A DNA stretch of 64,000 bases from Nitrospirae bacterium JdFR-85 (GTDB lineage Bacteria > Nitrospirota > Thermodesulfovibrionia > Thermodesulfovibrionales > JdFR-85): positions 1 through 64,000 of the forward strand of contig MTOU01000018.1 in the NCBI GenBank assembly GCA_002011745.1, in the 5' to 3' direction. Below, in pieces: positions 10,388 through 20,432 of the stretch (its first letter is position 1; every line of letters starts with the position of its first letter). The position numbers were made by a program, and so were the translations under genes. The notes below the pieces were generated by a model. That model had not been told where the DNA came from. It made no database searches and worked only from the letters and a program-made list of their open reading frames with translations.

Positions 10388-10394
10388 TTTTAAT

Positions 10395-10580
10395 TGAAGC
10401 CTTCAGGTGCCACAGGGCTTAAAAGGGAATCCCGTGAAAATCGGGAGCGGACCCGCCGCTGTGACCCTGAAAACAACCCTTTACCAGAAAGCCACTGTTG
10501 AGCACCAGGTTTAAGCTTGGTGCTTGATGGGAAGGCGGTAAAGGACAGGGAAGCCAGAAGACCTGCCTGAAGGCATGGAC
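10395..10580 (+). promoter_or_regulatory. Cobalamin (adenosylcobalamin-class) riboswitch
   Basis: The conserved blocks appear in order: GGTGCC, AAAAGGGAATCC, the GACCCGCCGCTGTGACC segment, the AAGCCA block and GCCAGAAGACCTGCC. The closing P1 stem GCCTTCAGG (10398-10406) pairs with CCTGAAGGC (10566-10574). It sits directly upstream of cobU-cobT-cobS, with an intrinsic terminator between. Cobalamin binding is expected to favour termination and shut down nucleotide-loop assembly genes. Confidence 0.95.
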
Positions 10581-10630
10581 ATTGCTCCTCGGGGGCTGGG
10601 AGTGATGTCAATGAGGATGAAAGCGGGTTA

Positions 10631-19081: not shown

Positions 19082-20263
19082 TTACTCTTTCTCAAGCCAT
19101 CTGTTCCCTGTACTCATAATACCTATCGCACCTAAAGGAGCAGTCAAGAGTATGGAAAGCACTGCTACTGCAAGAATTATATCTCCAGACTTTACACCTG
19201 CCTCCAGAGGCACTGCACCTATTGCAGCTTGTACTGTTGCCTTTGGGATATAGGATATAACACAAAAGAGCCTCTCTTTAAAATTAAGCTCTGTTCTAAG
19301 TACACAGAGATAGGTTCCTATACTTCTGCCAATCAGGGCAACAAATACAAGAAAGGCACCCACAAGCCCTGCATTCCATGCAACTTTGATATTAACCTGA
19401 GCACCCACAAGGACAAATAGCAGTATCTCAGCAAATATCCAAACCTTTGCAAGTTTCTGCGATATCTTATGGGCTATGGTTTCTCTCTTCTCCAGAATTA
19501 TAAATCCTACTGTCATAACACCGAGGAGTGCAGATACAGCAATTCTGTCTCTCAGTATATCCTCAAGCCATGTCAGAAGCACCGATACAGCTATAATAGT
19601 TATTGTCATTTTAGTTGCTCGCAGGTTGTACTTCACGAATATCCTATAAAGAATATAACCTGTTGCGGCACCTGTAATAATACCCAGAATAATCGATTCT
19701 GGAATCTCCAAGAGTTTTACAAAGATATTCGTATGAAAACCTGTATACATACCAAGGAGTATAGAAAAAACTACTATTACAAAAACATCATCCACTGATG
19801 AGGCACCAAGTATCAGAGTAGGAATACCCTTCTTTGTACCCCTCTTCTGGTCAATAAAATTTATCATCAAGGGGACAACAACAGCAGGTGATACTGCAGA
19901 CAGTATTGCTCCCAAGATAGCAGCCTCTAAGTAAGTGATACCAAGGAACTTAGGAGCCAAAAGGGTAATAACCGCCCCTTCAAAAATAGCAGGCACACAG
20001 GACATCAGAAGTGCAGTTTTACCAACACGATTAAGGGTATCCCTCCTCAGTTCAAGCCCTGCCCTCAAAAGGATCACTATTAAGGCAACCATCCTGAGAT
20101 CAGCAGATACCCTAAGAAGCTCTGGTTGCATAATATTAAACACATAGGGACCACAGAGAATTCCCACCAACAGCATCCCTACAAGCCCAGGGAGGTTTAA
20201 CTTTCTGAAGAGATAATCAGCCAAAAGACCGAGAAGTACTACAAAAGCCAAACTTACTGCCAT
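19082..20263 (-). CDS. Cation:proton antiporter (CPA family) under a fluoride riboswitch
   Basis: A 393-residue polytopic protein of the CPA superfamily with about 11-12 transmembrane segments. ILSAVSPAVVVPL and SSVDDVFVIV are typical of cation/H+ exchangers. ATG 20263 is chosen because AAAGGAGGT lies six bases upstream; a longer start at 20287 has no good RBS. The gene follows a fluoride riboswitch and overlaps a 29-codon leader ORF. CPA antiporters are a known minority class of fluoride-riboswitch-controlled genes, so a role in fluoride resistance is likely. It converges with hypC. Confidence 0.85.
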   Translation of the reverse strand: MAVSLAFVVLLGLLADYLFRKLNLPGLVGMLLVGILCGPYVFNIMQPELLRVSADLRMVALIVILLRAGLELRRDTLNRVGKTALLMSCVPAIFEGAVITLLAPKFLGITYLEAAILGAILSAVSPAVVVPLMINFIDQKRGTKKGIPTLILGASSVDDVFVIVVFSILLGMYTGFHTNIFVKLLEIPESIILGIITGAATGYILYRIFVKYNLRATKMTITIIAVSVLLTWLEDILRDRIAVSALLGVMTVGFIILEKRETIAHKISQKLAKVWIFAEILLFVLVGAQVNIKVAWNAGLVGAFLVFVALIGRSIGTYLCVLRTELNFKERLFCVISYIPKATVQAAIGAVPLEAGVKSGDIILAVAVLSILLTAPLGAIGIMSTGNRWLEKE

Positions 20264-20343
20264 AAGAGACCTCCTTTGGATAGACATTTAGGAATTAGAT
20301 TATCTGGTAGGATCTTTCTTCTTGATTGATTCTGGTTCGCCAT
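20254..20343 (-). CDS. 29-residue leader peptide between fluoride riboswitch and antiporter
   Basis: The frame ATG 20343 to TAA 20254-20256 encodes a 29-residue basic peptide (MANQNQSRRKILPDNL, then IPKCLSKGGLLWQ). AGGAGG sits seven bases before the ATG. The antiporter RBS lies inside its coding sequence and its stop falls ten bases past the antiporter start, an arrangement that fits translational coupling. The sequence CTCCTG at the aptamer 3' edge can pair with CAGGAG of this RBS. It may be a coupling leader or a functional small protein; I do not recognise a family. Confidence 0.5.
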   Translation of the reverse strand: MANQNQSRRKILPDNLIPKCLSKGGLLWQ

Positions 20344-20369
20344 ATAGCCACCTCCTGCAAAGTATTTCT

Positions 20370-20432
20370 TCACAGGAGTCATCAGCCATATGGCAAACCA
20401 TACGGCGGTTAAAGGCGGACTCCATCGCCTGG
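20370..20432 (-). promoter_or_regulatory. Fluoride riboswitch (crcB motif)
   Basis: On the minus strand the conserved elements are GGCGATGGAGTCCGCC, TTTAACCGCC, a variable hairpin ATGG...CCAT, and GGCTGATGACTCC. These match the crcB-motif aptamer in order and spacing. It lies upstream of the leader ORF and the CPA antiporter. No T-tract terminator is visible, so control is probably at translation initiation. Confidence 0.92.

Follow-up and report, generated by a model that had tools for sequence, protein, structure and literature searches.

A putative translational fluoride riboswitch on a short bridging ORF that overlaps a CPA2-type antiporter gene in a Nitrospirota bacterium

Translational control by fluoride (crcB) riboswitches is established, and the switches of Pseudomonas syringae and Burkholderia pseudomallei have served as translational controls (PMC13273304); in this type the switch has ON logic and the 3' strand of the aptamer pseudoknot competes with a structure that hides the Shine-Dalgarno (SD) sequence of a transporter gene. 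Other fluoride switches, located on orthologs of the antiporter considered here (G140, G032, G196 and Clostridium), are of the terminator type, with a U-tract termination hairpin and no leader, and act before the antiporter SD. A third relevant system is the B12 riboswitch-uPPE2-ppe2 arrangement of Mycobacterium tuberculosis, in which an OFF-switch governs initiation at a small upstream ORF, uPPE2, that is read in another frame and ends across the start codon of ppe2 (a 4-nt AUGA overlap); ppe2 has no SD, translation of the uORF is required, and termination-reinitiation dominates (PMC11260477).

The locus described here lies in a window of 64,000 nucleotides (the whole stretch that was analysed, positions 1 to 64,000 of contig MTOU01000018.1) from Nitrospirae bacterium JdFR-85, and we consider it probable that it represents a translational fluoride ON-switch acting on a disposable bridging ORF that is coupled to an exporter gene. 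It resembles the P. syringae and B. pseudomallei switches in aptamer class, in ON logic and in the competition between the pseudoknot strand and an SD-hiding structure; unlike in those switches, the masked start would be that of the short bridging ORF and not the transporter's, and the start codon region would in addition be invaded by the aptamer's P3 arm. With the terminator-type switches it shares the aptamer and the antiporter family. Like the ppe2 relay it has a riboswitch-controlled, out-of-frame uORF with an overlapping stop, whereas the downstream gene, far from being devoid of an SD, has a strong one, the overlap is of 10 nt, and the predicted ligand is fluoride, with ON logic. We found no report in the open-access literature of a fluoride switch with an upstream ORF, a leader peptide or coupling. 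The remark in an initial annotation of this DNA that the layout was unfamiliar among fluoride switches is thus borne out within that literature, although the relay logic as such has already been tested for B12 (PMC11260477). Each part is known elsewhere, and it is their combination in a fluoride switch that seems to be new.

The aptamer, on the minus strand like all other features of the locus, extends over 20438-20366 and matches RF01734 with 55.6 bits (gathering score 34, E 1e-12) along the complete model, positions 1-64, so that its earlier description as a textbook crcB motif was apt. P1 (20429-20426/20417-20414) and the pseudoknot (GGAGTC 20423-20418 with GACTCC 20380-20375) are 100% paired across six members of one family, namely G000 (the window), G154, G120, G348, G394 and G250; the outer pairs of P3 (20406-20398/20393-20385) are retained in all six, with mid-P3 mismatches in some relatives. 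By its sequence the element is a genuine fluoride aptamer, from which we infer the fluoride response, and it is the sole fluoride riboswitch of a 2.33-Mb genome rated 100% complete. A TauE/SafE gene on the same strand ends 67 nt 5' of it, and a simple promoter scan yielded only two weak sites, near chance level. Elsewhere in the window, at 10388-10584 (+), there is a strong cobalamin riboswitch (RF00174, 105 bits).

The antiporter gene (19082-20263) encodes 393 aa from the ATG at 20263 and stands alone, since the next gene 3' of it, hypC, is convergent. The protein matches PF00999 (E 4e-51), its nearest solved relatives by profile are NHA2/SLC9B2 (7b4l, E 2e-49) and NapA (4czb), and on these matches it is a CPA2/NHA2-type antiporter, scoring below the cut-off of the CPA2 model TIGR00932 and reaching no curated cut-off of NCBIfam. 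No CrcB/FluC is encoded in the genome and neither of its two CLC-family proteins is under a fluoride switch, which makes fluoride export by the antiporter plausible.

Between aptamer and antiporter lies a 29-codon leader ORF (MANQNQSRRKILPDNLIPKCLSKGGLLWQ, 20254-20343), with its ATG at 20343, an SD AGGAGG at 20351-20356 (anti-SD energy -11.6 kcal/mol) and a TAA at 20256-20254 that overlaps the antiporter start, the two ORFs having 10 nt (ATGGCAGTAA) in common in different frames. The antiporter SD, AAAGGAGG (20276-20269, -12.3 kcal/mol), falls within the leader, 5 nt 5' of the antiporter ATG; the program-listed ORF begins at ATG 20287, in frame and without an SD, and AAAGGAGG serves ATG 20263. 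Both the strong leader ribosome-binding site (RBS) with an overlapping stop and the antiporter RBS inside the leader had been noticed initially, and both are confirmed. That leader and antiporter are a single frameshifted gene was considered and rejected: a TAA directly precedes ATG 20287 in the antiporter frame, and the phases vary among relatives. There is no intrinsic terminator, i.e. no hairpin with a U-tract, between aptamer and antiporter start; one hairpin is predicted inside the antiporter gene.

In the predicted ligand-free fold the leader start is masked in two ways. CTCCTG (20378-20373) is complementary to CAGGAG (20357-20352), as the initial annotation had pointed out, and in both the MFE and the centroid fold this pairing is enlarged to an 11-bp SD-sequestering hairpin, CTCCTGTGAAG-AAATA-CTTTGCAGGAG (20352-20378). 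The CTCC of its 5' arm also belongs to the pseudoknot strand GACTCC, so hairpin and pseudoknot are mutually exclusive. Enclosing the hairpin is a predicted 17-bp anti-aptamer helix (20333-20400), in which 20400-20384, made up of P3 arm and loop, is paired to 20349-20333 at the beginning of the leader, covering the AUG and codons 2-4; with a duplex energy of -28.0 kcal/mol (z -5.8) it is stronger than the SD hairpin. The resulting 100-nt apo rod has -50.4 kcal/mol compared with -26.2 +/- 3.1 in shuffles (z -7.9) and, because both P3 and the pseudoknot strand are taken up in it, cannot coexist with the ligand-bound fold. In modelling limited to nested folds, the probability that the leader SD is unpaired rises from 0.18 in the apo state to 0.87 with the pseudoknot strand withheld. 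The AUG stays paired in the latter model because P3 is not forced to form there, so that the opening of the AUG is something we infer; in G394 the constrained fold leaves the SD unfreed. With an SD hidden in the apo fold and freed by the pseudoknot in these models, and with no intrinsic terminator, the switch is of the translational type, and the first step suggested initially, masking of the leader RBS in the absence of fluoride, is well supported in silico, with the AUG now included in the predicted mask.

Comparison among relatives points the same way. Across the six family loci, 84% of the cells of the P3-leader helix are paired and five pairs have changed on both sides, with columns 47/91, for example, showing CG, GC, GU, UA and UG. 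Only 1/500 shuffles reached the covariation score of the whole structure, which was also higher than that of every slid version. Alignment A2 gave no covariation score for the inner SD hairpin, as a base lying between the SD and the AUG in the window sequence had been put in the wrong place by MAFFT; read directly, the CTCCTG/CAGGAG core is present in all six sequences. The z values of the P3-leader duplex in the family are -5.8, -5.0, -3.7, -5.9, -2.1 and -3.1, against about 0 elsewhere: 127 riboswitches of the phylum have a median z of -0.04 for this complementarity, with the window ranking second-strongest and with the window, G348 and G154 within the four lowest. L129, L181, L198 and G398 lack the helix by the duplex test. 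Given the covariation and the family-specific complementarity, leader codons 1-4 appear to be constrained as RNA. A different P3-invading expression platform may exist in the same order, in G052 (L017) and G075 (L025) of one genus, where the first gene has an SD complementary to the P3 arm (CACTGAAAAGGAGGCA with TGCCTCTGATTTTCAGTG; z -5.0 and -2.8).

Positional counterparts of the leader ORF were found in G394, G120 and G348 of the family, at L129 in another Nitrospirota lineage, and, by scanning, in the Planctomycetota (L198) and the Spirochaetota (L181, with a TTG start). Aptamer, SD mask and open bridging ORF occur together in 4/4 of the family loci with a preserved antiporter start (G000, G394, G120 and G348), the leaders having 29, 32, 37 and 38 codons, unrelated peptides, and stops that are either TAA (+7) or TAG (+8). 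Conservation of the leader, proposed initially as a check, therefore holds in the family for the open frame that ends on the antiporter start and not for the peptide sequence. No leader locus has an intrinsic terminator, while most other orthologs of the order and beyond have a terminator and no leader; at L130 the SD mask acts directly on the antiporter, and several orthologs have no switch at all. A tree of 31 antiporters calls for at least four changes in the leader state, in which gains and losses are not separated; this excludes a single origin without further change and suggests that the leader state arose repeatedly. In two family loci the antiporter itself has decayed while switch and leader are kept: in G348 (L064) it runs for 80 aa and then meets a stop, and in G154 (L062) only a C-terminal remnant persists, in frame with the leader.

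One may ask whether the leader peptide itself could be what is selected, as a functional microprotein such as a fluoride-response or membrane peptide. The strong SD and the conserved position would fit such a role, yet the peptides resemble each other only at their very beginning, where RNA pairing dictates the residues, their lengths in the Nitrospirota range over 23-38 aa, and being unconserved they leave no coding signature; we therefore rejected a conserved peptide and regard a microprotein as highly improbable. The L198 leader looks by eye like a decayed CrcB/FluC gene, but Pfam gives no match at E<=1, and this candidate was likewise discarded.

Since an ORF of this size might be open by chance, the frames were compared in an unbiased set of five loci that had not been picked by ORF, i.e. 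the four family loci and L129; L181 and L198 were left out of these counts because the scan that found them lists ORF overlap. These tests treat the loci as independent, which is true only in part for four of them, and the loci are few. The leader frame is open in 5/5 loci, compared with 2/10 when the remaining two frames of these spacers are read (p 0.007), or in 7/7 against 2/14 when L181 and L198 are added (p 3e-4). In spacer shuffles of the five loci the probability of joint openness is only about 0.004-0.01, and the corresponding value for a stop no more than 20 nt from the antiporter start is 0.013, both being obtained as products. A stop fitting the phase is found in 7/7 leader loci (5/5 in the unbiased set) compared with 18/70 (+7) and 13/70 (+8) of the non-leader orthologs, the +7 and +8 stops being in part a consequence of the conserved antiporter start MAVS (ATGGCNGTAAG). 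Conservation of frame and stop thus supports the proposed relay at the level of sequence. These counts also bear on the idea that the leader is a relic, an unselected stub left when a switch that once drove another first gene found itself before the antiporter as the first intact gene. Such a history is suggested by G250, where the same switch directly drives a dynamin-like ORF, by the dynamin gene that lies 3' of the gutted antiporter in G154, and by the lack of peptide conservation. Nevertheless, a neutral stub should gather stops rather than stay open with stops matched in phase, and no leader resembles a known gene, so we consider a relic improbable.

The second step is less straightforward. 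It was originally proposed that the leader folds over the antiporter RBS and that its translation opens this site, but predicted accessibility of the antiporter start in the window is 0.42 with the native leader and 0.46 +/- 0.10 with shuffled leaders. There is no difference in G120 or L129 either, and no conserved leader-RBS helix; somewhat lower accessibility than in shuffled leaders, as such unmasking would predict, is seen only in G348 and G394. The antiporter SD, weak only in G348 and L129, is in the window as strong as that of the leader and not specifically hidden, making reinitiation or polarity likelier than RBS unmasking, which we consider very unlikely. The same strong, unmasked SD counts against the relay too, as it could load ribosomes independently, and some fluoride-independent expression of the antiporter is expected from it. 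It would be compatible with polarity, the main rival to coupling, in which the leader, translated when fluoride is present, shields the nascent mRNA from Rho or decay and the antiporter initiates on its own, with no reinitiation. Rho is encoded in the genome, and translational riboswitches are usually accompanied by Rho-dependent termination of mRNA left unprotected (PMC7266159). However, polarity alone leaves unexplained why, in seven loci whose spacing and phase have changed, the position of the leader stop coincides exactly with the antiporter start, whereas termination and reinitiation fit the tight stop-start overlap. We thus view polarity without coupling as rather unlikely, although both processes could act together.

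In the mechanism that we favor, coupling by reinitiation, the P3 arm and the 3' pseudoknot strand would pair, in the absence of fluoride, with the leader start codon and SD, and the long rod so formed would keep ribosomes from loading. When fluoride is bound, P1, P3 and the pseudoknot would form, the rod could not, and the 29-codon leader would be translated. Ribosomes would then end at the UAA, located 7-9 nt beyond the first base of the antiporter AUG and beside a strong SD, where they would most likely re-initiate at the antiporter start. The peptide would be irrelevant; what would count is that no stop interrupts the frame between the switched SD and the start of the antiporter. We put forward only tentatively the broader reading that fluoride riboswitches have repeatedly evolved such a bridging-ORF relay, where a peptide-irrelevant ORF is selected when the switched SD is far from the exporter start and its stop tracks that start in the phase of the spacer, with the first codons doubling as an anti-aptamer strand in one Nitrospirota family.

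If so, short ORFs that follow riboswitches can be selected as carriers of ribosomes rather than for their peptides, as these loci suggest, and a start codon with the first codons after it may, by the predicted folds, serve as the anti-aptamer strand. The locus would also add a fluoride-switch expression platform that is missed by searches for terminators or for the SD of annotated genes. Should the coupling be real, it would join the tested B12 relay of M. tuberculosis and make the riboswitch-uORF relay a recurring design.

Fluoride riboswitches of the Nitrospirota have other targets as well. A dynamin-family GTPase often follows them: by motif, 17/148 loci of the phylum have one within 700 nt 3' of the switch, examples being L062:347-2104 (-) and L066 (PF00350, E 4e-30 in G154), and we found no paper linking fluoride riboswitches to dynamins in the open-access literature searched. 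At L287 and L288 (G061 and G103) the SD mask is placed directly on a conserved 71-aa membrane ORF, the stop of which overlaps or abuts the start of a transporter-like protein of about 431 aa. At L067 and L265 (G270 and G398, of the same family) the fluoride switch directly precedes an ATPase-like ORF (MQSSSINLIGREGQLK..GPEGCGKT), an unusual target.
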